Below the pieces are notes generated by a model, which was given only the letters and a program-made list of their open reading frames with translations, was not told the DNA's origin and made no database searches. A DNA stretch of 64,000 nucleotides from Streptomyces sp. JJ66. Lineage in GTDB: Bacteria; Actinomycetota; Actinomycetes; Streptomycetales; Streptomycetaceae. The stretch spans positions 5,416 to 69,415 of the forward strand of contig NZ_JAEVFI010000012.1 of the NCBI RefSeq assembly GCF_019303495.1, given 5' to 3'. This document shows positions 50,895 to 64,000 of the stretch, piece after piece (position 1 is the stretch's first letter; every line of letters begins with the position of its first letter). A program made the translations under genes and the position numbers.

Positions 50895-52037
50895 GTGAAC
50901 AAGGCGACTCAGCTCCGCGCCGCACTCGCGGCCAGCCTCACGGAGGACGGCACCCTCACGAAACCCGAGTGGAGCAGCGCGGCCAGGGCGGTGCCCCGCG
51001 AGTTGTTCACGGGGTCCTACTTCCGGGCCGTGGCGGGCAGCGTTCCGACTACCTACCGCCCCGTCCGTGAGGGCGAGCCCGGATGGCTGGAGGGGGTCTA
51101 CTCCGACGAAACGCTGATCACACAACTCGACGGCCGGACCAGGCCCGACGATGTGGCCGGGGGAGCCGTGCCCGGCTCCCCCTCGTCCTCGTCCACCCTG
51201 CCGTCGCTGGTGTTGCGTATGTGGCAGCAGCTCGGGGCCAAAACCGGACACCGGGTGCTGGAGATCGGCACGGGCACGGGCTACTCGACCGCCCTCGGCG
51301 CGCATCGTCTCGGGGACGCCAACCTCACCAGCATCGAGTACGACCCGGTGGTGGGCGGTGCTGCGGCCGCCGCGCTCAAGATGGCCGGTTTCGCGCCCCG
51401 GCTGATCATCGGTGACGGCCTGCGCGGCGACCCGGACGGTGGACCGTATGACCGACTCATCGCCACCTGTTCGGTCCGGTACCTCCCGCTCCCGTGGCTG
51501 CACCAGGTCAGGCCGGGCGGAAAGATTCTGGTCACCCTGTCCGGATGGGGCTACGCCAGCGCCCTCGCGCTGCTCGATGTCACCGGCCCCGGGCAGGCCA
51601 TGGGCCGGTTCCTGCCCGGGTACACCAGCTTCATGATCGCCCGACCACACGACCGCCCGCCCCGCCCGTCCCTGGCCCTGCTGCCCGGCGAGGAGCGCCC
51701 GAGCCAGATCGATCCCGCCAAGCTCGACGACTGGACCGGTGGCTGGGTCGCACAGCTCGCGGCACCCTCGGCCGAGCGCATGGGGGCAGGAGCGGAGCAG
51801 ATCCTCTGGGACGTGTCCACCGGTTCGCAGGCCCGGACGGCGCCAGACGCGGGCGGGGGGTGGAACGTCGTGCAGCGCGGGCCTGTGCGCCTATGGGATC
51901 GGGTCGAGCGGGCGGTGCGGCGTTGGCAGGCCGCTGGCGAACCCCACCAGGAGGAATTCGGCATCACGGTCTCGGCCGCCGGTCAGCGGGTGTGGCTCGG
52001 TACCGAGGACGGTCCCGGCTGGGACCTGCCGATCTGA
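50895..52037 (+). CDS. PCMT-like (L-isoaspartate O-methyltransferase family) methyltransferase
   Basis: SAM-dependent methyltransferase of 380 aa. Motif I is VLEIGTGTGYSTALGAHRLG, post-I LTSIEYDPVV and motif II YDRLIATCSVRYLPLPWLHQ, as in protein-L-isoaspartate methyltransferases. A family-specific C-terminal ~170 residues (from RPPRPSLALLPGEERPSQID) follows. Such long PCMT homologues are frequent in actinobacterial RiPP (graspetide, lanthipeptide) loci, but I find no ATP-grasp ligase, lanthionine synthetase or convincing precursor beside it. The GTG start follows AAGGAAACAAG and overlaps an upstream TGA. Confidence 0.78.
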   Translation: MNKATQLRAALAASLTEDGTLTKPEWSSAARAVPRELFTGSYFRAVAGSVPTTYRPVREGEPGWLEGVYSDETLITQLDGRTRPDDVAGGAVPGSPSSSSTLPSLVLRMWQQLGAKTGHRVLEIGTGTGYSTALGAHRLGDANLTSIEYDPVVGGAAAAALKMAGFAPRLIIGDGLRGDPDGGPYDRLIATCSVRYLPLPWLHQVRPGGKILVTLSGWGYASALALLDVTGPGQAMGRFLPGYTSFMIARPHDRPPRPSLALLPGEERPSQIDPAKLDDWTGGWVAQLAAPSAERMGAGAEQILWDVSTGSQARTAPDAGGGWNVVQRGPVRLWDRVERAVRRWQAAGEPHQEEFGITVSAAGQRVWLGTEDGPGWDLPI

Positions 52038-52603: not shown

Positions 52604-54049
52604 ATGGCATACGACGATCTCCGCTCGCTGCTGCGGGCGCTGGAGCGCGACGGCGACCTGAAGCGGATCACGGCCGAGGTGGACCCCTACCTGGAGGTCG
52701 GTGAGATCACCGACCGGGTCAACAAGGCCGGGGGCCCGGCGCTGCTGTTCGAGAACGTCAAGGGGTCGGCGATGCCGCTGGCCATGAACGTCTACGGCAC
52801 CGACCGGCGCTTGCTGAAGTCGCTGGGGCTGCGCGATTACGACGAGATCAGCCAGCGTATCGGCGGCCTGCTGAAGCCGGAGCTGCCGCAGGGGTTCGTC
52901 GGTTTCCGGGAGGCGTTCGGCAAGCTCGCGGGCATGACGCACGTCCCGCCGAAGAAGGTGAAGGACGCGCCCGTGCAGGACGTCGTGCTCACCGGCGACG
53001 AGGTGGACCTGGACGCGCTGCCTGCCCTGTTCACCTGGCCCCAGGACGGCGGCAGCTTCTTCAACCTGGGCCTCACCCACACGAAGGACCCGGAGACCGG
53101 CGTCCGCAACCTCGGCCTGTACCGGCTCCAGCGGCACGACCGGCGCACGATCGGCATGCACTGGCAGATCCACAAGGACAGCCGCAACCACTACCAGGTC
53201 GCCGCGCGGCGCGGGGAGCGGCTGCCGGTCGCGATCGCCTTCGGCTGTCCGCCCGCCGTCACCTACGCCTCCACCGCGCCGCTGCCCGGCGACATCGACG
53301 AGTACCTGTTCGCCGGGTTCCTCCAGGGCAAGCGGGTGGAGATGGTGGACTGCAAGACGGTGCCGCTCCAGGTGCCCGCGCAGGCCGAGGTCGTCATCGA
53401 GGGCTGGCTGGAGCCGGGGAAGATGCTGCCGGAGGGCCCCTTCGGCGACCACACCGGCTTCTACACGCCGCAGGAGGACTTCCCCGCGCTGACGATCGAC
53501 TGCGTGACGATGCGCAGGCGTCCGCTGCTGCAGTCCATCGTCGTCGGACGGCCGCCGACCGAGGACGGGCCGCTGGGCCGCGCTACCGAGCGGTTCTTCC
53601 TGCCCCTGCTGAAGATCATCATCCCGGACATCGTGGACTACCACCTGCCCGAGGCGGGCGGCTTCCACAACTGCGCGATCCTGTCGATCGACAAGAAGTA
53701 CCCCAAGCACGCGCAGAAGGTGATGCACGCGGTGTGGGGCGCGCACATGATGTCGCTGACGAAGCTGATCGTGGTGGTGGACTCCGACTGCGACGTGCAC
53801 GACCTGCACGAGGTCGCCTGGCGCGCGCTGGGCAACACCGACTACGCCCGCGACCTGTCCGTCGTCGAAGGCCCCGTCGATCACCTCGACCACGCCTCCT
53901 ACCAGCAGTTCTGGGGCGGCAAGGCGGGCATCGACGCGACCCGGAAGGGGCCGGAGGAGGGCTACACGCGCGGCTGGCCGGAGATGGTCGTCTCCGACCC
54001 GGACACCGCCGTCATGGTGGACCGGCGCTGGCGGGAGTACGGGCTGTGA
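52604..54049 (+). CDS. UbiD-family decarboxylase of menaquinone (futalosine) biosynthesis
   Basis: Prenylated-FMN-dependent decarboxylase of 481 aa (MqnL-type). The N-terminus is MAYDDLRSLLRALERDGDLK. Family signatures are GVRNLGLYRLQRHDRRTIGM-like substrate/cofactor residues, the catalytic Glu region ITIDC near EGPFGDHTGFYTPQEDFPAL and the Arg/Glu/Glu network (IEGWLEPGKMLPEGPFGDHT). It removes the carboxylate of the prenylated naphthoate. It overlaps mqnP by 4 nt. Confidence 0.9.
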   Translation: MAYDDLRSLLRALERDGDLKRITAEVDPYLEVGEITDRVNKAGGPALLFENVKGSAMPLAMNVYGTDRRLLKSLGLRDYDEISQRIGGLLKPELPQGFVGFREAFGKLAGMTHVPPKKVKDAPVQDVVLTGDEVDLDALPALFTWPQDGGSFFNLGLTHTKDPETGVRNLGLYRLQRHDRRTIGMHWQIHKDSRNHYQVAARRGERLPVAIAFGCPPAVTYASTAPLPGDIDEYLFAGFLQGKRVEMVDCKTVPLQVPAQAEVVIEGWLEPGKMLPEGPFGDHTGFYTPQEDFPALTIDCVTMRRRPLLQSIVVGRPPTEDGPLGRATERFFLPLLKIIIPDIVDYHLPEAGGFHNCAILSIDKKYPKHAQKVMHAVWGAHMMSLTKLIVVVDSDCDVHDLHEVAWRALGNTDYARDLSVVEGPVDHLDHASYQQFWGGKAGIDATRKGPEEGYTRGWPEMVVSDPDTAVMVDRRWREYGL

Positions 54050-55092: not shown

Positions 55093-55581
55093 CTACGGCG
55101 TGTCACCCAGCGACAGCAGCAGCGTGCGCAGGAGGTGGTCGAGCTCGCGATGGCTCTCCTGGTCGAGCCCGGACAACAGCTTGCGCTGGTTCTGCACGTG
55201 GCCTTCGATCACCGCGTCAACCTGGTCGCGGCCGGCCTCGGTGAGGACGATGTGCAGGCTGCGACGGTTGCCGGGTACGGCCTCGCGTCTCACGAACTCG
55301 CGGGCGACGAGGCGGTCCACGCGGTTCGTCAGGGCCGCGGAGCCGATCATGACGCTGGCCGCCAGCTCCTTAGCAGTCAACGGTCGGTCGGTGCGCCGCA
55401 GGGTCGCGAGGACATCGAATTCCCAGGTCTCCATGCCGTGTTCGGCGAAGTAGTCCTTGAGGCCGGAGCCGACGAACCGGGAGAGACGCATGAGGCGCCC
55501 GACGGTGCCCATGGCGTCGAGGTCCAGATCAGTGCGCAGGGCGGCCCACTGACCGAGGAACTCGTCCACGGAGTCGCGCAT
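55093..55581 (-). CDS. MarR-family transcriptional regulator
   Basis: Winged-helix regulator of 162 aa: MRLSRFVGSGLKDYFAEHGM, recognition part RPLTAKELAASVMIGSAALT with NRVDRLVAREFVRREA and wing GNRRSLHIVLTEAGR. The ATG at 55581 follows GAGGTGAC. It is divergent from the nitroreductase gene across a 70-85 bp gap with a strong promoter and repeats, the usual layout for a MarR that controls its neighbour in response to a small molecule. Confidence 0.9.
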   Translation of the reverse strand: MRDSVDEFLGQWAALRTDLDLDAMGTVGRLMRLSRFVGSGLKDYFAEHGMETWEFDVLATLRRTDRPLTAKELAASVMIGSAALTNRVDRLVAREFVRREAVPGNRRSLHIVLTEAGRDQVDAVIEGHVQNQRKLLSGLDQESHRELDHLLRTLLLSLGDTP

Positions 55582-55617
55582 GCCGTCACCTCGCTTTCGT
55601 TGTTCCACGGCAGAACG

Positions 55618-55647
55618 TTGACAGGCTTCCACGGTATCCCTTATCTT
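55618..55647 (+). promoter_or_regulatory. Consensus promoter of the nitroreductase gene
   Basis: TTGACA (55618-55623) and TATCTT (55642-55647) are separated by 18 bp, close to the housekeeping sigma consensus and unusual in this GC-rich window. The start point should be near 55654, downstream of the first ATG (55652). Just after it, TCGATGTCAGAAGGT and TCGATGTCGAAAGGT form a 15-bp direct repeat, a candidate MarR site. Confidence 0.75.
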
Positions 55648-55666
55648 CTCGATGTCAGAAGGTTCG

Positions 55667-56338
55667 ATGTCGAAAGGTTCGAGAGTGGCTCCGGAAGTAG
55701 ATCATTCCACGGTGGCACGGGTCATTCGTGCACGTCGGAGTGTCCGTCACTACCGGCCCGACCCGGTCCCGGCACCGCTGCTGCGCGAACTGACCGACCT
55801 GGCTCTGGAGGCTCCGTCCAGCTTCAACCTCCAGGCCCGAGCCGTCGTGGTCGTGACCGAGCAGGAGGGGCGCGAGGCCCTTGCCCGGGCCACCGGCGGG
55901 CAGCCTCATCCGCAGGAAGCACCGGTCATGCTGGTCTTCGTCGCTGAGTCCGGTGCCTGGCGCGAGGACCGGGGTGATATCTGGTCAGCAGCCCGTGATC
56001 AGGGCGCATGGTCCTCAGCGTTCGCCGAAGCCACGCCCGCGATGATCCGGCAGTTTCACGAAGCTCCGGCCAGACGCGGCCTGGAGCGGGAGTACGCCGT
56101 CAAGGACGCGATGATCGCGGCTTCGTTCCTGATGATCGCCGCCCAGGCGGCGGGTCTGGCCACCAGCCCTATGAACGGCTGGGACGAAGATGAGGTCAAG
56201 AAGGCCATCGGCGTCGACGAACGCGATGACGTGCACGTCGCCCTGCTGATGCCCTTGGGCTATCCCGCCGAAACCCGGCTCCACCCGGGCCGTCGGGACC
56301 GTGCACTAACCTGCTTCAGCGAGACTTACGGAGGCTGA
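55667..56338 (+). CDS. Nitroreductase-family flavoprotein
   Basis: FMN-dependent oxidoreductase of about 223 aa. FMN-binding Arg residues are in VIRARRSVRHYRPDPVPAPL and SSFNLQ gives the second phosphate/isoalloxazine contact; AASFLMIAAQAAGLATSPMNG and the C-terminal GRRDRALTCFSETYGG complete the fold. The start is uncertain: ATG 55652 lies upstream of the predicted transcription start, while ATG 55667 (after AGAAGG) and GTG 55685 (after AAAGG) are both feasible. It may be a MarR-controlled redox gene or the first gene of the nucleoside-like cluster. Confidence 0.83.
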   Translation: MSKGSRVAPEVDHSTVARVIRARRSVRHYRPDPVPAPLLRELTDLALEAPSSFNLQARAVVVVTEQEGREALARATGGQPHPQEAPVMLVFVAESGAWREDRGDIWSAARDQGAWSSAFAEATPAMIRQFHEAPARRGLEREYAVKDAMIAASFLMIAAQAAGLATSPMNGWDEDEVKKAIGVDERDDVHVALLMPLGYPAETRLHPGRRDRALTCFSETYGG

Positions 56339-56485: not shown

Positions 56486-57169
56486 ATGACCGCTGTGCAT
56501 CATCTCGTGCAGGTCGCCGGCATCATCGACGGTGACGAGGCTGACATGGTCATCGGCGAGGGTGCCGACTGGCTCGGGTTCGCTCTGCGTCTGCCATCTG
56601 GCAAGGACGACATCGCCGAGCAGGACGCCGCCACGATCATCAAGGGTCTAGAGCCCCCGCATGCGGGCGTCCTCATCAGTTACCTGACCGACGCGCAGGA
56701 AATCAGTGACTTCTGCAGCGAGCTCGGTGTCGCTGCCGTTCAATTGCACGGTGACGTCGCCACCGAACAGCTCCGCCGACTCCAGGAGATCCGTTCCGAC
56801 CTGTTCGTCCTGAAGTCGCTTGTGGTCAAGCAGGGAAACGCCGGGGAACTGCTGAAGCTCGTCGACGAGACTCATCCGTATGTCGATATGTACATCACCG
56901 ACACGTTCGACCCGAAGACAGGGGCCAAGGGCGCGACAGGCCTGACCCACGACTGGGACGTCTCCGCCGAGTTGGTCCGGCGTTCCCCCAAGCCTCTCAT
57001 GATGGCGGGTGGCCTGAACCCGAACAACGTTGGTGACGCCATCCGTGCCGTACGGCCCGCTGCCGTGGACGCTCACACCGGCCTGGAAGGCCCGGGCGGA
57101 CGTAAGGACCGCGACAAGGTAGCGAAGTTCATCGCTGAAGCCCGCCGGGCCTTCGAAGAGATCGGCTGA
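56486..57169 (+). CDS. TrpF-like (phosphoribosylanthranilate isomerase fold) protein lacking the catalytic Cys
   Basis: A (beta/alpha)8-barrel protein of 227 aa clearly related to phosphoribosylanthranilate isomerase: GADWLGFAL, AAVQLHGD, GATGLTHDW, MAGGLNPNNV and VDAHTGLEGPGGRKD match the family in order. The general base Cys of the KICG motif is Ala (HLVQVAGI, Ala11) and the conserved Arg of the SPR loop is missing (LPSGKDD), while the general acid Asp (Asp139, YITD) is kept. It therefore probably does not make tryptophan and may act on another phosphoribosyl compound. GAGGGGGAAGG precedes the ATG. It sits at the head of the nucleoside-like cluster. Confidence 0.8.
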   Translation: MTAVHHLVQVAGIIDGDEADMVIGEGADWLGFALRLPSGKDDIAEQDAATIIKGLEPPHAGVLISYLTDAQEISDFCSELGVAAVQLHGDVATEQLRRLQEIRSDLFVLKSLVVKQGNAGELLKLVDETHPYVDMYITDTFDPKTGAKGATGLTHDWDVSAELVRRSPKPLMMAGGLNPNNVGDAIRAVRPAAVDAHTGLEGPGGRKDRDKVAKFIAEARRAFEEIG

Positions 57170-57297
57170 TCAGCCGGACGAGGCGGTCGGTGCCCGCACC
57201 TGCCCGGCCGCCCGCTCCTTATACGCCCCTGTCGGGGCGGAACTCCCATGCCAGGAACGGCCTACCGCAGCAATCGCGGTACCGAGGAGACCACGCT

Positions 57298-57963
57298 GTG
57301 ACCATCGGCCATAACGTCCAGTTGCTTCCCCAGACCGATCAACTCCGCGCCATGCATACCGTCGTCCGCGACCGCGACTGCACCCGCGAAGACTTCACCT
57401 TCTACTCCCGTCGCATCATCCGCCTTCTGCTGGAGGCCGCAAGTGGCCTGCTGCCCTTCACCGAGAAGGAGGTCACCACCCCGGTCGGCGTCACCTATCA
57501 GGGGTTGGAGTGCGCCGTCCAGCCGTGCGCTGTCTCCGTGATCCGCGCCGGCGAGGCGATCGAGGGCGAGTTGCGCGATGTCCTGCCCGGCGTCCGCATC
57601 GGAAAGATTCTCATTCAGCGGGACAAGCACACCAAGTTGCCCCGCCTCTACTACCAGCACTTGCCTGCCGACATCGCCGACCGGCACGTCTTGCTTCTGG
57701 AACCAATGCTCGCTACGGCCGGGTCCGCGCTCGCCGCAATCGATGTGCTCCTGAGCGCCGGCGTGGGCGAAGACCACATCGTCATGGTCAATGTTCTGTC
57801 GTCACCTGAAGGGCTGCGCCGTCTGGCCACCGAGCGGCCGGCCGTACGAGTTGTCACGAGCGCTGTCGAAGAACGGCTCAACGAACACGCTTTCATGATT
57901 CCCGGCATCGGGGACTTCGGTGATCGTTTCTTCGGCACGGTGGACAGCGGAGTCGTCAAGTGA
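57298..57963 (+). CDS. Uracil phosphoribosyltransferase-like enzyme
   Basis: Type I PRTase of 221 aa: VQPCAVSVIRAGEAIEGELR (nucleobase/PRPP loop), LLLEPMLATAGSALAAIDVL (PRPP loop; usual DPMLATGGS, so two changes) and MIPGIGDFGDRFFGT (uracil-binding C-terminus). The reaction expected is nucleobase + PRPP to nucleotide. GAGGAG lies 8 nt before the GTG at 57298; the EamA gene starts at its stop (GTGA). In this cluster it may recycle pyrimidine, detoxify a uracil-like product or supply a phosphoribosylated intermediate. Confidence 0.85.
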   Translation: MTIGHNVQLLPQTDQLRAMHTVVRDRDCTREDFTFYSRRIIRLLLEAASGLLPFTEKEVTTPVGVTYQGLECAVQPCAVSVIRAGEAIEGELRDVLPGVRIGKILIQRDKHTKLPRLYYQHLPADIADRHVLLLEPMLATAGSALAAIDVLLSAGVGEDHIVMVNVLSSPEGLRRLATERPAVRVVTSAVEERLNEHAFMIPGIGDFGDRFFGTVDSGVVK

Positions 57964-58862
57964 GCACCCACCGGATCGCCTCCACCTCCGCGATGACCGC
58001 GTTGGCGCCCGCCGTATGGGGCTCCACATACCTCGTCACCACTGAGTTCCTTCCGCCAGACCGGCCCCTTCTGGCCTCTACTCTCCGGGCGCTGCCCGCT
58101 GGGTTGCTCCTGCTGCTGTTCACCCGCGTATTGCCTCGCGGCGTGTGGTGGTGGCGTGCTGTGGTTCTGGGCGTGCTGAACATCGGAGCCTTCTTCTACT
58201 TCCTGTTTCTGGCCGCCTACCACCTTCCCGGAGGAGTCGCCGCGCTGGTCATGTCCGTCCAACCCATGATCGTGCTGCTGCTGGGCGCACCGCTGCTGGG
58301 TGACCGGGTTCAGCCTGTGCACATCGTCTCCTGCCTGGTCGGCGCGACCGGCGTTGGCCTGCTCGTGCTGCAACCAGGTGCCGGATTGGACGGCATCGGT
58401 GTTGTGGCCGGCCTGCTCGGTGCGCTGTGCATGGCCAGTGGGATCGTGCTGACCAAGCGCTGGGGGCGTCCTGAGGGCGTCAGCTTGCTGACGTTTACCG
58501 GTTGGCAGCTCACCGTCGGCGGGCTGTTTCTGCTGCCGATCACCCTCGTCGGTGAATCGCTGCCGGAGCGCCTCACGTGGGGTAACATCGGCGGCTTCGC
58601 CTATCTCTGCTTCATCGGCGCCCTTGTCGCTTACGTCGTGTGGTTCCACGGCCTTGCCCGCCTACCCGCACTCGCGGCCTCCTTCCTGTCGTTCGCCTCG
58701 CCGCTGTGTGCCACGGTTCTCGGGTACCTCTTCCTGGGACAGAGACTGGGCACGCTGCAGCTCCTCGGCGCCGCAGCTGTCGTCGGTGCCGTCGTGCTGG
58801 CCCAGCCCCGCGTCAAGAAGCCTGCTCCGGAGCCTGCCGAGCGCGCGGTGAGCCGCGTCTGA
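57960..58862 (+). CDS. EamA/DMT-family transporter
   Basis: Ten-TM drug/metabolite transporter of 300 aa with the typical two EamA halves: APAVWGSTYLVTTEFLPPDR in TM1-2 and LPGGVAALVMSVQPMIVLLL in the first half, GNIGGFAYLCFIGALVAYVV and LSFASPLCATVLGYLFLGQR in the second. It is coupled to the PRTase gene and lies just before the synthetase, so the likely role is export of the product. A transmembrane protein plays the self-resistance role in the minimycin system. Confidence 0.86.
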   Translation: MSTHRIASTSAMTALAPAVWGSTYLVTTEFLPPDRPLLASTLRALPAGLLLLLFTRVLPRGVWWWRAVVLGVLNIGAFFYFLFLAAYHLPGGVAALVMSVQPMIVLLLGAPLLGDRVQPVHIVSCLVGATGVGLLVLQPGAGLDGIGVVAGLLGALCMASGIVLTKRWGRPEGVSLLTFTGWQLTVGGLFLLPITLVGESLPERLTWGNIGGFAYLCFIGALVAYVVWFHGLARLPALAASFLSFASPLCATVLGYLFLGQRLGTLQLLGAAAVVGAVVLAQPRVKKPAPEPAERAVSRV

Positions 58863-59125: not shown

Positions 59126-62100
59126 ATGAGCACTCGTGCGCCAAATTCCGGTGTGTTCCACAAGGGTGTCTCCTTGACCGATCTGCTTGCCCGACAGGCA
59201 CGCCTCCGTCCGGACGAGGTCGCTGTCACGGTGCCCGGGTCAGAAGGCGAGAAAAGCCGTCAGTTGACTTTCCGCAGTCTCCATACCGAGGCCCGACGCA
59301 TTGGCGCCTACCTGGTTCGGCTAGGTGTCGAGCCGGACACCTGCGTCGGCCTGTTCGCGGAACCTTCCGCCGAGCTGATGACAGGCGTGTGGGGCATTCT
59401 GGCGTCCGGGGCAGCCTATCTGCCGCTCTCGCCGGAGTACCCGGAGGAACGGCTCAGGTTCATAATCGAAGACTCGGCCGCCCCGGTCATCGTCGTACAG
59501 GAGCACTTGCGCGACCGGGCGCGGGAACTGGCTCCGGAGGGCGTCCGCGTCGTCACAACCGCGGACATCACTGATCAACCAGCGGTGTCGTTGCCGGAGA
59601 CGCGTGGCGATCACCTCGCGTACGTGATCTATACCTCGGGGAGCACCGGCCGGCCCAAGGGAGTCATGATCGAACAGCGCGGCATCGTCTCCCAGATGCA
59701 GTGGCTGGCCAGTTTCGGGCATCTGGGCACCGAGGTGTCGATCCTGCAGAAGACCCCCATGAGCTTTGACGCTGCCCAGTGGGAGATCCTTGCCCCGGTA
59801 ACCGGTGCCCGGACGGTCATGGGCCTCCCCGGGATTTTTCGGGAACCCGAGGCCATCATCACCATGATCCGCGAGCACCGGGTGACTGCCTTGCAAGGGG
59901 TGCCCACCCTTTTGCAGGCCCTACTGGATACCGAGCAGTTCGACGCCTGCCGCTCACTCACCCGGATCTTCTCCGGCGGCGAGACGCTGACCCGCACGCT
60001 GGCCGCGGACCTGTTCGCGGCCCTGCCCGGGGTGTCGGTCGTCAATCTGTACGGGCCGACCGAAACGACGATCAACGCCACATCACACTGGATCGACCCT
60101 GCCGCTCTTGCCGACATTCCAGTCGGCTCCTCAGGGACGGCGACTGTGCCGATCGGCACTCCTGCCGACAACGTCACGTGCTATATCCTCGACGAGAATC
60201 GGCAGCCGGTCGACTTCAGCGAGAGCGGCGAACTGTTTATCGGTGGGAAGCAGGTCGCGCGCGGATACATCGGGCTGCCAGAACAGACCGCGCAGCGGTT
60301 CGTGGATTCCCCGTTCCATCCCACCGAGCGGCTCTACCGCACGGGAGACCTGTGCCAATGGAACCCCGACGGCACTCTTCATTTTCTGGGCCGCACCGAC
60401 AATCAGGTCAAACTTCGGGGTTATCGGGTGGAATTGGAGGAGGTGGCGTCCCGCATCGAGGAGCACCCCTGGGTCCGCCGTGCCGCGGCCATCATCACGG
60501 ATGATCCACGTACCGGCTCCAAGGCACTCGTCGCCGCGGTCGAGCTGAACGAGCGTAACGCCGCCGTCATGGACCAAGGGCGGGATGACGCCGCTCACCA
60601 CCAGTCAAAGGCCTCCAAGGTGCAGGTGAAGGCACAACTGTCCAGCCCCGGCCTGCGCACACCCGGGGAGTTGGCGGGACGCCGGGTCGTGGAATTGCCC
60701 GGCAAAAAGGCCACCGTACGCCAGCGGCGGGAGGCGTTCGCCCGCAAGACTTACCGCTTCTACGACGGGGGCCCGGTGTCTGAGGCCGATGTTCTCCGTC
60801 TGCTCGCACCGCGACCCGGTCCGTCGTCATCGCGCCCACTGGAGGACCTGACATGGGACGCACTCGGTGAGATTTTCCGCTGGTTCGGGCCGTTCCGCAG
60901 TGAGGAACGGCTGCTGCCGAAGTATGCCTACGCCTCTCCTGGGGCCTTGTACGCCGCACAAATGTACTTGGAGGTCAGTGGCCTAACCGGCGTGGCTCCC
61001 GGGCTGTACTACCATCATCCGATAGACCACGCCTTGGTTCGCATCGGCGACGTAGCCCATGACTTTCCCGCACAGGGTTTCAGAATTCACTTCCTAGGCA
61101 AGGTTCGGGCTATCGAGCCTGTCTATAAGAACAACATCGCCGAGGTGTTGGAGTTCGAGGCTGGCCACATGGTCGGTGTTTTCGAAGAGATCCTTCCCGG
61201 TCACGGTCTCACCATCACACCCCACGGCTTCGATCCGCGAGTCAAGAACCGGCTCGATGTCCCAGAAGAGGACCTTTACCTGGGGACCTTCGATATCTCC
61301 GAAAACCACAGCAGGCCGTTGCGGGCACCGGTCGATCTCTATGTGCAAGCACATGAAGATCGGGTGGCCGGTTTGGTGGCGGGCTTGTATCGCTACCGGG
61401 GCGGCCGCCTGGAACGCACGAGCTCCGAGGTCGTGGAGCGGCGTCACGTCATCGCGATCAACCAGGGTGTGTACGAGCGAGCCGCGTTCGGTATCAGTGC
61501 TGTTTCCCGGACTGATGCCGACTGGTTGCGCTATCTCGTGCTCGGAACAGCGCTGCACCACCTCCAGCGCGTCCCTGGCATGGGCCTGATGTCCTCCGGC
61601 TACTCCTCGAAGTCCGGCCACCCGCTGCCTGCCTCCCGCCGCCTTGATGACGTGCTCGCAGCCGCGGGAGAACCGGCCGCTGCCGCCTCCTACTTTTTCG
61701 TCGGCGGCCGCATCAGCGCCCAGCAGGCTATGCACGACGGCATGAACGAAGACGCGGTTCACACCAAGGGGCCTGCGGAAATGATTCGTGACGATCTCGG
61801 GCGGTTTCTGCCGGATTACATGATGCCCGCGCGGGTGGCAGTACTGAACGAGTTGCCCCTGACGGCCAACGGTAAGATCGATTGCAATGCCACCGCGCGG
61901 CTGCCGCAAGTCGCCCAAACTCGTACCTCCGCTGAATATGTCGCGCCCGCGACCGCGACGGAGCGCTGGCTGGCTGCGGAGTGGGGCCGGACGTTGAAGT
62001 ACGAGGACGTTTCCTCGCAGGATGAGTTCTTCGCCTCCGGCGGCAACTCGCTGCACGCAGTGGCCCTAATGAACCGGATCAACGGAGAGTTCGGTGTCAA

Positions 62101-62989
62101 TCTGCCGTTGCAGGTGATCTTCGAGTCGCCGCGGTTGTCCCATCTCGCCAGCCGCATCGACGAGGGCACACCGCACCGCCTCTCCCGCCTCGTCCCGTTG
62201 CATGACGGCCCTGCGGACCGGCCGGTGTTCTGCTGGCCGGGGCTCGGCGGCTACCCCATGAACCTGAGGTTGCTGGCCCGTGAGGCGGCTGGGAGCCGAG
62301 CCTTCTACGGAGTTCAGGCTCACGGCATCAACCCTGGTGAGGTGCCGCACAGCACCATTCGCGAGATGGCGATGGCTGACGTATCGGAGATCCGTCGCGT
62401 TCAGCCGTCGGGGCCGTACACGTTGTGGGGTTACTCCTTCGGAGCACGGGTGGCTTTCGAGACGGCCTGGCAACTGGAGCAGTTCGGCGAAAAGGTCGAT
62501 CAACTGCTGCTGATTTGTCCCGGTAATCCCCGGGTGCGTACCGCGGCCAGCGGCCGTCCGGCTCGCTCGGCGTCCTACACTGACCCGGTCTACCTCACCA
62601 TCTTGTTTTCCGTCTTCACGGGAACAATTCAGGGGCAGCAACTGGAGGAATGTCTGCGTCGGGTAACCGACGAACAGTCCTTCCTCTCTTACATGAGCGG
62701 AATACTGCCCCAACTCGACCGGGAAACCATACGTCGCATCACCCGGATCGTAGGAGAGACGTACGCGTTCGAATACAGCTTCCGGGAACTGCGTGAGCGC
62801 CACATCAACGCACCCGTGACAATCTTCAAGGCTCGAGGTGACGACTACTCGTTTGTGGAGAGCAGCGCCAGTTACTCGGCTGAGCCGCCGACGGTCGTCG
62901 ATTTGGTCGGGGGCCACTACAGCGTGCTGAAGGAACACGGGGTCGCCGAACTCGCCACCGCTATCGCGACAAAGGCTCACCGCCCGTAG
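59126..62989 (+). CDS. Single-module NRPS A-Ox-T-TE, indigoidine synthetase type (IndC/BpsA/MinA-like)
   Basis: Predicted synthetase of 1287 aa, close to the ~1280 aa of BpsA/IndC. The adenylation domain has A3 YTSGSTGRPKG (from residue 169), A5 NLYGPTE (307), A7 YRTGDL and A8 GRTDNQVKLRGYRVELEEV (422). An FMN oxidase domain is inserted after A8 (about 500-860; KTYRFYDGG at 541), then A10 ELPLTANGKID (909). The carrier domain has FFASGGNSLHAV (Ser975), and the thioesterase GYSFG (Ser1104) with late His in VGGHYSVL. The family activates, oxidises and cyclises L-glutamine. The start at 59126 has GGGGGA 6 nt away; ATG 59120 is too close. Neighbouring PsuG points to a C-nucleoside use, with indigoidine as an alternative product. 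Confidence 0.93.
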   Translation: MSTRAPNSGVFHKGVSLTDLLARQARLRPDEVAVTVPGSEGEKSRQLTFRSLHTEARRIGAYLVRLGVEPDTCVGLFAEPSAELMTGVWGILASGAAYLPLSPEYPEERLRFIIEDSAAPVIVVQEHLRDRARELAPEGVRVVTTADITDQPAVSLPETRGDHLAYVIYTSGSTGRPKGVMIEQRGIVSQMQWLASFGHLGTEVSILQKTPMSFDAAQWEILAPVTGARTVMGLPGIFREPEAIITMIREHRVTALQGVPTLLQALLDTEQFDACRSLTRIFSGGETLTRTLAADLFAALPGVSVVNLYGPTETTINATSHWIDPAALADIPVGSSGTATVPIGTPADNVTCYILDENRQPVDFSESGELFIGGKQVARGYIGLPEQTAQRFVDSPFHPTERLYRTGDLCQWNPDGTLHFLGRTDNQVKLRGYRVELEEVASRIEEHPWVRRAAAIITDDPRTGSKALVAAVELNERNAAVMDQGRDDAAHHQSKASKVQVKAQLSSPGLRTPGELAGRRVVELPGKKATVRQRREAFARKTYRFYDGGPVSEADVLRLLAPRPGPSSSRPLEDLTWDALGEIFRWFGPFRSEERLLPKYAYASPGALYAAQMYLEVSGLTGVAPGLYYHHPIDHALVRIGDVAHDFPAQGFRIHFLGKVRAIEPVYKNNIAEVLEFEAGHMVGVFEEILPGHGLTITPHGFDPRVKNRLDVPEEDLYLGTFDISENHSRPLRAPVDLYVQAHEDRVAGLVAGLYRYRGGRLERTSSEVVERRHVIAINQGVYERAAFGISAVSRTDADWLRYLVLGTALHHLQRVPGMGLMSSGYSSKSGHPLPASRRLDDVLAAAGEPAAAASYFFVGGRISAQQAMHDGMNEDAVHTKGPAEMIRDDLGRFLPDYMMPARVAVLNELPLTANGKIDCNATARLPQVAQTRTSAEYVAPATATERWLAAEWGRTLKYEDVSSQDEFFASGGNSLHAVALMNRINGEFGVNLPLQVIFESPRLSHLASRIDEGTPHRLSRLVPLHDGPADRPVFCWPGLGGYPMNLRLLAREAAGSRAFYGVQAHGINPGEVPHSTIREMAMADVSEIRRVQPSGPYTLWGYSFGARVAFETAWQLEQFGEKVDQLLLICPGNPRVRTAASGRPARSASYTDPVYLTILFSVFTGTIQGQQLEECLRRVTDEQSFLSYMSGILPQLDRETIRRITRIVGETYAFEYSFRELRERHINAPVTIFKARGDDYSFVESSASYSAEPPTVVDLVGGHYSVLKEHGVAELATAIATKAHRP

Positions 62990-63079: not shown

Positions 63080-63346
63080 GTGCCTCACGTCAGCATCAAA
63101 CACTGGCCTCGCCCGTTTACCGCCGCTGCCCAGGCCGAGTTGGTTGGGTCCCTGACCGAGACGATCACGCGGACCTTCGGCTGCGAGCCGGATTCTGTTT
63201 CGATCGCGGTGGAGAGCGTCGAGCCGTCCCGCTGGCGGGACGAGGTTCAGCTACCCGAACTGGAGCAGCGCGCTCACCTGCTGTGGAAGCAGCCAAAGCA
63301 CACCCAGCCCCTCTCGGCCGCCCGGACCGCGGAAGGGACCCGATGA
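63080..63346 (+). CDS. 4-oxalocrotonate tautomerase-like protein
   Basis: Tautomerase-superfamily protein of 88 aa. After removal of the initiator, Pro1 ([17 protein letters not shown]) would be the catalytic base; a central [20 protein letters not shown] matches the beta-alpha-beta unit. The C-terminus is ~20 residues longer than 62-aa 4-OT. The GTG start follows AAAGGAG. It overlaps the PsuG-like gene by 4 nt (ATGA), so the two are coupled; a role in tautomerising the cyclised glutamine product or its ribosylated form is inference. Confidence 0.82.
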
Positions 63347-64000
63347 ACCCGCTCATCCCGCTCGTCTACACCGAAGAAATCCGCGAGGCTGTACACGAGG
63401 GCCGCCCGGTCGTCGCGTTGGAGTCCAATGTCATCACGCACGGCCTGAAGTACCCGCACAACGCCGAGACAGCCCATCAGGTAGAGGAGGCCGTTCGTAA
63501 GGGAGGCTCGGTCCCGGCGACCATCTGTGTCGAGGACGGAGCCCTCAAGATTGGCATGACCGAGCGCGACATCGAACGGTTCGCCGGCGAACCGGGCATC
63601 CCCAAGGTGTCCAGTCGCGATCTGCCCGTCGTCCTGGCCCGTGGCGGGCGCGGTGCTACCACCGTGGCCTCATCGCTCGTGGCAGCGGAACTCGCCGGGA
63701 TTCCGTTCTTCTCCTCCGCGGGGCTTGGCGGCGTGCATCGCGGAGCCCAGACCACCATGGACGTCTCCTCGGACCTGATCCAGCTCACCCGCTCCAAGGT
63801 TGCTGTGGTGTGTGCCGGCGCTAAGATGATTCTCGATCTGAAGCTGACCATGGAGTACCTGGAGACGCAGTGTGTCCCGGTGATCGCGCACGGCTCCGAC
63901 GACTTCCCGGCCTTCTACTGTTCCTCCAGCGGAGTGAGATCCCCGCACCGAATCGATGACGAAGATCTGATCGCCAGGACCGTGGCCCTGCACTGGGCCG
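63343..64000 (+). CDS. Pseudouridine-5'-phosphate glycosidase homologue (PsuG/IndA/MinB-like), truncated by window end
   Basis: The first 219 codons of a gene expected to be about 300-310 codons; it runs off the window. The catalytic residues of E. coli PsuG are conserved: Glu27 (VVALESN), Lys88 ([10 protein letters not shown]), His132 in [10 protein letters not shown], Asp140 and Lys161 ([10 protein letters not shown]). The usual ALEST is ALESN (Asn29). PsuG reversibly links ribose 5-phosphate to uracil by a C-C bond; in minimycin and showdomycin clusters homologues act as C-glycoside synthases. The start overlaps the tautomerase stop, tying it to the synthetase operon. Confidence 0.92.

Follow-up and report, generated by a model that had tools for sequence, protein, structure and literature searches.

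TrpF*, a TrpF-fold paralogue lacking the catalytic cysteine, is a recurrent component of IndC/PsuG C-nucleoside gene clusters

A paralogue of phosphoribosylanthranilate isomerase (PRAI, or TrpF) encoded in Streptomyces sp. JJ66, here called TrpF*, is a recurrent component of IndC/PsuG C-nucleoside clusters, where it stands in the place usually taken by a phosphatase. TrpF is a textbook case of barrel-fold enzyme evolution, and in this paralogue the base and the carboxylate clamp have been lost, with the acid and the phosphate site retained. Its alternation with HAD phosphatases suggests a class of C-nucleoside clusters that has so far been overlooked, in which TrpF* is now annotated ‘phosphoribosylanthranilate isomerase’—as a genetic marker TrpF* can be used to find such clusters, and it gives a direct assay. 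Throughout, the window denotes the whole stretch of 64,000 nucleotides that was analysed.

Family, fold and active site of TrpF*

TrpF* is encoded at 56486..57169 on the + strand and, from its ATG start, is 227 amino acids long; Gln9, Ala11 and Asp41 are its altered residues, and Asp139 and His88 are kept. The protein belongs to the Pfam PRAI family (PF00697, 78 bits against a cut-off of 22.7), and every one of the 13 NCBIfam models that match it describes phosphoribosylanthranilate isomerase or a fusion thereof. It nevertheless scores under all 13 NCBIfam cut-offs by a wide margin (at best 115.4 bits against 215), which places it outside the isomerase equivalogs. A sequence comparison with solved proteins puts PRAI structures closest (best E 1.5e-21), and the AlphaFold2 model is that of a confidently predicted TrpF-fold barrel, with a mean pLDDT of 91.8 and a pTM of 0.89. 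PRAI itself or a fusion containing it accounts for its top 11 solved structural matches (Z 26.5-20.0) and for the top 12 from Foldseek; compared with TrpF of T. maritima (1nsj/1lbm) and P. furiosus (4aaj), the same fold extends over residues 5-222, with Z about 24-26.5 and ~30% identity. The phosphoribosyl-isomerase barrel is also shared with PriA and HisA (Z about 18.5), although these form a separate family, PF00977. The initial annotation had called the protein a TrpF paralogue and suggested overlaying a predicted structure on TrpF; the PF00697 match, the predicted PRAI-type fold with its Z of up to 26.5, and the sub-cut-off equivalog scores all agree with that call. The weakest region of the model is the beta6-alpha6 loop (block 141-150, pLDDT 58), and this loop bears new invariant residues. 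TrpF* evolves under purifying selection: pairwise dN/dS is 0.09-0.13 against eight close Streptomyces relatives and 0.20-0.33 against five more distant ones, with no value for L016 and L017, whose synonymous sites are saturated.

Aligned to T. maritima PRAI, Cys7, Arg36 and Asp126 correspond to Ala11, Asp41 and Asp139 of TrpF*; we take these residues to be, respectively, the base, the partner of the anthranilate carboxylate, and the acid of TrpF. Positions 9/11/39/41 are Gln/Ala/Gly/Asp in the window protein and Lys/Cys/Ser/Arg in all 31 compared TrpF. For this comparison T. maritima PRAI was aligned with the 30 PRAI loci that scored highest in 119 sampled Actinomycetota genomes, of which 63 had a match; weaker matches lay outside the alignment. 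Asp139 and His88 are each found in 30 of these 31. The replacements extend to the relatives of TrpF*—when the window protein is aligned with 24 relatives that are 52-88% identical, all 25 rows have Ala at position 11 and an acidic residue, Asp or Glu, at position 41, so that the general-base Cys and the S-x-R Arg are both gone. Gln9 is likewise invariant where TrpF has Lys, a loss that the initial annotation had not listed, whereas the change of Ser to Gly is recorded in the window protein.

The general acid and the phosphate loops are retained as Asp139 and the GGLxPxN and VD motifs; the LNPNNV and GLEGPGGRKD motifs are present, and Asp139 and His88, the latter in the QLHG motif shared with TrpF, are invariant across the 25 rows. 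The earlier reading, in which the Cys of the base had become Ala11 and the SPR-loop Arg was missing while Asp139 and the barrel and phosphate motifs persisted, is thus correct on each point. Unlike TrpF, the family has acquired the invariant residues Thr138, Lys148, His155 and His197, which lie on the catalytic face. The 75 invariant columns are concentrated there as well (50/95 on the catalytic face against 25/125 elsewhere, Fisher p 4e-7), which makes TrpF* look unlike a dead scaffold. The initial annotation had suggested ring opening or an Amadori-like step on another phosphoribosyl intermediate as its possible reaction. The missing base Cys speaks against TrpF* carrying out a complete Amadori rearrangement in the manner of TrpF; the residue pattern would fit a protein that has kept furanose opening, has lost C2' proton abstraction, and acts on a substrate without a carboxylate. 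Judged from the kept residues, ring opening or closing is the chemistry that would be left.

The alanine sets TrpF* apart from 20 other homologues of PRAI whose start could be read (L014, L034-L048, L050-L053; L050 repeats L038), where Cys is found in 19, Tyr in one, and Ala in none. The homologue with Tyr (L053, motif VQIYGI) has HTPG at the S-x-R site and comes from a genome of 2.1 Mb in the same phylum (G467). Within this set there is also a second odd Streptomyces PRAI family (L034-L048, L050), with an LKVCGAT...GLWHGV-like motif, the Cys kept, and no conserved S-x-R Arg; it scores 47-63 bits to the TrpF* profile and occurs in 15 of 392 Streptomyces genomes.

The cluster and the relatives of TrpF*

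The gene order around TrpF* is a divergent MarR regulator, a nitroreductase, TrpF*, uracil phosphoribosyltransferase (UPRT), EamA, NRPS, tautomerase, PsuG/IndA, OYE, and PRPP synthetase. The MarR-family regulator (55093..55632, - strand; PF12802/PF01047) and the nitroreductase-family protein immediately upstream (55652..56338, +; PF00881) are kept in part of the relatives. Downstream, all on the + strand, are UPRT (57298..57963; PF14681, 238 bits), whose start is taken from relatives, the listed reading frame opening at 57190; an EamA/DMT-family transporter (57960..58862; PF00892); and an IndC/MinA-type single-module NRPS (59126..62989) with AMP-binding, oxidase (about residues 506-854), PP-binding and thioesterase parts, for which we infer a start inside a listed frame that begins upstream at 58640. 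A small PptA-like, tautomerase-like protein follows (63080..63346; NF002324 at 60 bits against a cut-off of 83, no Pfam match), and then the 5' part of a PsuG/IndA-type C-glycosynthase (63343..64000, past the window end; PF04227 Indigoidine_A, 356.9 bits). The complete PsuG/IndA gene is at L002:2759-3691, with OYE beyond the window at L002:3741-4811 and PRPP synthetase at L002:4838-5758, the identity of the last being shown on a 74% identical relative (L015). By coordinates, the frames of UPRT and EamA and those of the tautomerase and PsuG overlap by 4 bases. The domain matches to an IndC-type NRPS and a PsuG-type gene support the earlier description of the region as a putative C-nucleoside cluster. 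A second UPRT copy is found elsewhere in the genome, on C30. Further upstream in the window are a UbiD-family menaquinone biosynthesis decarboxylase (52604-54049; TIGR03701, 647.4 bits against 495.9) and a methyltransferase of an ATP-grasp peptide maturase system (50895-52037; TIGR04188, 443.9 bits against 380), given which a peptide (RiPP) cluster may lie nearby.

Relatives of TrpF* occur on chromosomes and plasmids. Of the 12 loci returned by a scan of genome contigs, one is 35% identical and has the Cys; the other 11, from Streptomyces, Actinophytocola, Nocardiopsis and Dactylosporangium, are 62-86% identical. Nine plasmid records at 53-71%, six of which were examined in detail, come from Streptomyces, from Agrobacterium vitis and from two species of Corynebacterium. 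In a wider sample of 396 genomes of the phylum, TrpF* was found in its own genome only, and the three other matches at E 1e-30 (108-147 bits) have Cys (two) or Tyr (one). The presence of TrpF* on actinobacterial chromosomes and plasmids and on Agrobacterium plasmids suggests horizontal spread. One Agrobacterium vitis plasmid (CG957, L020) carries a cassette in decay, with NRPS, PsuG and OYE fragmentary and the TrpF* and UPRT matches full length.

Besides the window there are 29 TrpF* loci, 12 of them from the Streptomyces sample described below, at 25 distinct places (L056, L055, L058 and L059 repeat L004, L005, L008 and L018). In all 29, as in the window, UPRT follows TrpF* in the same orientation. 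The matched stretches of the two genes are 26-561 bases apart in 25 loci and 1.2-1.4 kb apart, with reading frames in between, in the other four (L004, L006, L056, L057); in L011 and L061 the frames as called overlap by 4 bases. The distances among TrpF* proteins correlate most closely with those of UPRT (r 0.91), followed by the oxidase segment (0.85) and PsuG (0.83).

Alternation of TrpF* with HAD proteins

A profile search of 392 Streptomyces genomes (E 1e-10) matched 29: 13 of them score 394-443 bits, and the matches in the other 16, at 45-63 bits, are other PRAI proteins. The IndC oxidase segment is present in 62 of the 392 genomes, among them all 13 with TrpF*, and each of the 13 has IndC and PsuG alongside TrpF*, in line with the co-occurrence that the initial annotation had proposed to look for. 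In one genome (G265) PsuG and TrpF* are on separate contigs, and the link is drawn by way of a close relative (L006), which leads us to take L114 as the second contig of that cluster. There are 54 further IndC stretches: L114, six with PsuG, UPRT and a HAD protein and no TrpF* (five also with DUF4243), and 47 without PsuG. TrpF* is thus in 13 of 19 PsuG-bearing IndC loci and in 0 of 47 without PsuG (Fisher p 1.3e-9, relatedness ignored), the flanks searched in the latter being ~7-9 kb; five of the 47 are shortened by contig ends (L104, L117, L122, L134, L145), one is part of an NRPS only (L149), and one holds a partial UPRT match (L099). Its absence from these 47 rules out a part for TrpF* in indigoidine formation itself. 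In one of these PsuG-less IndC loci (L112) there is a DUF4243 match and no PsuG, UPRT or HAD within the stretch.

The 19 PsuG-bearing loci divide into 13 with TrpF* and no HAD and six with a HAD protein of the MinC/IndB type and no TrpF*; none has both (13 vs 6, p 3.7e-5, relatedness ignored). Of 12 testable TrpF*-type loci, 10 carry PRPP synthetase and nine carry OYE; neither gene is found in any of the six HAD-type loci. A general pairing of TrpF* with OYE is ruled out, since L061, L062 and L065 lack OYE.

The two types have been exchanged repeatedly. In a cluster tree of 27 rows and 881 columns, based on UPRT, PsuG and the oxidase segment, two switches between TrpF* and HAD types are required, and a single origin of the six HAD-type rows is rejected (p-AU 3.5e-14); one HAD row, L121, groups with the TrpF* rows L015/L060, and the other five adjoin the group L011/L013/L061/L062/L065. 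The rows L016 and L017 form long branches and have an unusual composition, which limits what the tree says about the type that came first. L121 has HAD in place of TrpF*, with UPRT, EamA, NRPS, PsuG and a weakly matching tautomerase frame (33 bits) retained as in the TrpF* rows related to it. After these repeated swaps the two types seem to be interchangeable components within a single kind of cluster.

A rule of TrpF* or HAD without exception is ruled out by L193, on a plasmid of Streptomyces sp. NBC_00158, where UPRT, EamA, tautomerase, PsuG, PRPP synthetase and NRPS occur and neither TrpF* nor HAD was found in the stretch; a search of the whole plasmid record, run without a positive control on such records, gave no TrpF* match. 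Either TrpF* is dispensable there or the cluster has decayed. Among the 37 plasmid records with IndC, nine were examined by way of the IndC search and five by way of the TrpF* search. On a Streptomyces plasmid (L192) the set is represented by EamA, tautomerase and NRPS alone, with no TrpF*, UPRT or PsuG, and seven IndC regions on Rhizobium, Leisingera and Bradyrhizobium plasmids list no PsuG or TrpF* in their incomplete gene tables.

Known systems and possible roles of TrpF*

The window cluster shares with the minimycin cluster (minA/B/C/D/T) an IndC-type NRPS (MinA), a PsuG-type C-glycosynthase (MinB), and UPRT (MinD); both also have a transporter, the EamA protein of the window being a candidate counterpart of MinT. 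It differs in having TrpF*, OYE, PRPP synthetase and nitroreductase, and in the last 10 kb of the window and L002 there was no match at E 1e-6 to MinC (HAD phosphatase and DUF4243; references from L109); the distinction is drawn from a secondary description of the minimycin cluster. With the indigoidine cluster indA-indB-indC it shares the IndA and IndC types, whereas IndB (HAD) is missing, with no HAD match. A published counterpart is the pigment region of the Corynebacterium aurimucosum plasmid pET44827 (orf17-orf20), which has TrpF* (53% identical), UPRT, NRPS, tautomerase, PsuG, EamA and MarR; unlike the window cluster, that stretch has no OYE or PRPP synthetase match and has an NAD(P)-binding protein instead. 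The 2010 account of this region already lists the NRPS, an IndA homologue, a phosphoribosyltransferase and a PRAI homologue together (PMC2830990). Its authors proposed that orf19/orf20 activate the NRPS, and the lost residues go unmentioned in its passages on these genes (PMC2830990); we set this role aside, as in our judgement the PRAI fold and UPRT suggest no phosphopantetheine transfer. The initial annotation had held that the reaction of TrpF* is not assigned in known pathways. This agrees with our literature search, whose scope did not take in the primary minimycin paper and which returned no paper linking PRAI with C-nucleosides or minimycin in a pathway, a tomato microbiome survey containing both the isomerase name and the word minimycin; the association of the genes, on the other hand, has been in print since 2010.

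Our preferred reading, offered tentatively, is that TrpF* is a neofunctionalised PRAI-fold enzyme that may act on the 5'-phosphorylated C-nucleotide made by PsuG and open or close its ribose ring. IndC would convert glutamine to an aminopyridine-dione, the tautomerase would adjust it, and PsuG would couple it with open-chain ribose 5-phosphate to give a C-nucleotide 5'-phosphate. The kept phosphate loops of TrpF* would hold this C-nucleotide while Asp139, with His88, would protonate the ring oxygen, opening the furanose to an open-chain alkylidene—or catalysing the reverse closure. Lacking the base Cys, TrpF* would stop before the C2' proton transfer of the Amadori reaction, and the flavin ene-reductase (OYE family), in clusters that have it, may trap the open form. 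A HAD protein would strip the 5'-phosphate and so destroy the substrate of TrpF*; the removal of a phosphate that TrpF* needs would explain why the two alternate. Where HAD is missing, a UMP-like C-nucleotide would accumulate, and UPRT and PRPP synthetase would keep UMP high against this phosphorylated mimic, by analogy with MinD. Self-protection in minimycin producers is assigned to the phosphatase MinCN and the UPRT MinD (PMC8724604).

A chemical precedent comes from YeiN, a PsuG homologue, for which the proposed last steps after Mannich-like coupling are lysine elimination and an oxa-Michael-like ring closure (PMC7722734). Between these two steps we would place an open-chain alkylidene, which is our own reading of them. 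An acid acting on the ring oxygen of the C-nucleotide would drive the closure step either way, and TrpF* keeps such an acid. In a more specific and more doubtful form of our proposal, TrpF* could be a C-nucleotide furanose openase/anomerase, performing the first half of the TrpF reaction on a C-glycoside instead of an N-glycoside. If true, there would be a separate class of IndC/PsuG products with opened or re-closed ribose, and a second C-nucleoside branch that alternates with phosphatase-dependent pathways of the minimycin type.

The tight linkage to UPRT, which could point just as well to an N-nucleotide substrate, raises an alternative that we consider rather improbable, in which the N-glycoside chemistry of TrpF is retained: UPRT would put the phosphoribose of PRPP on an IndC-derived amine or ring nitrogen, much as TrpD does on anthranilate, and TrpF* would open this N-nucleotide to a Schiff base, for hydrolytic editing or for passing on. 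The invariable downstream UPRT, the overlapping frames of L011 and L061, the PRPP synthetase that mostly accompanies TrpF*, and the close tracking of UPRT distances all fit such a route. However, UPRT is also in all six HAD-type loci without TrpF*, its PRPP and uracil motifs are ordinary by eye, MinD of the minimycin cluster is described as a plain UPRT (PMC8724604), and the alternation with HAD would be left unexplained.

In a reading to which we give slightly less credence, TrpF* is a non- or weakly catalytic binder that would hold back a toxic UMP mimic or pass it on, and so take over from the HAD phosphatase that detoxifies it. The loss of the base Cys, the Arg and the Lys, the retained phosphate motifs, and the occurrence of TrpF* where HAD is missing are consistent with a binder; yet the invariance of Asp139 and His88, together with the new invariant Thr138, Lys148, His155 and His197, suggests a site that is changed rather than dead. 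A literal replacement of HAD, in which TrpF* (or a host phosphatase alone) yields a free nucleoside and a product like that of the HAD-type clusters, strikes us as unlikely. It would draw on the swaps, two or more, in which the rest of the gene set stays much alike, and on L121, with the gene set of TrpF* relatives and HAD. Against it, the types that were swapped also differ in OYE, PRPP synthetase and DUF4243, which makes different products probable, and we know of no phosphatase activity in the PRAI fold.

There remains the tryptophan pathway. TrpF* is the sole PF00697 match in its genome, and a search for a normal trpF or priA, which the initial annotation had recommended, found PriA elsewhere (TIGR01919 hisA-trpF, 382.6 bits against a cut-off of 306.45); the tryptophan step of the genome is covered by it, and PriA together with the lost residues rules out TrpF* as the tryptophan enzyme of this genome. 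That TrpF* is still a phosphoribosylanthranilate isomerase for tryptophan synthesis, as its PF00697 score and the annotation carried by public plasmid records might suggest, is most improbable, given the Cys and Arg gone in 25 of 25 rows, the scores far under every isomerase equivalog cut-off, the resident PriA, and a Streptomyces sample in which TrpF* occurs only where IndC and PsuG do. As for tryptophan operons, none of six annotated plasmid loci lists a neighbouring tryptophan biosynthesis gene, the ‘isomerase’ label of TrpF* itself being disregarded and the other loci being annotated solely by similarity to the cluster's own proteins. At E 1e-5 the number of plasmid records matching TrpF* rises to 1836 (Escherichia 693, Klebsiella 574), 70 of them over 80% of its length; many are presumably a piece of trpF travelling beside a beta-lactamase or bleomycin gene.
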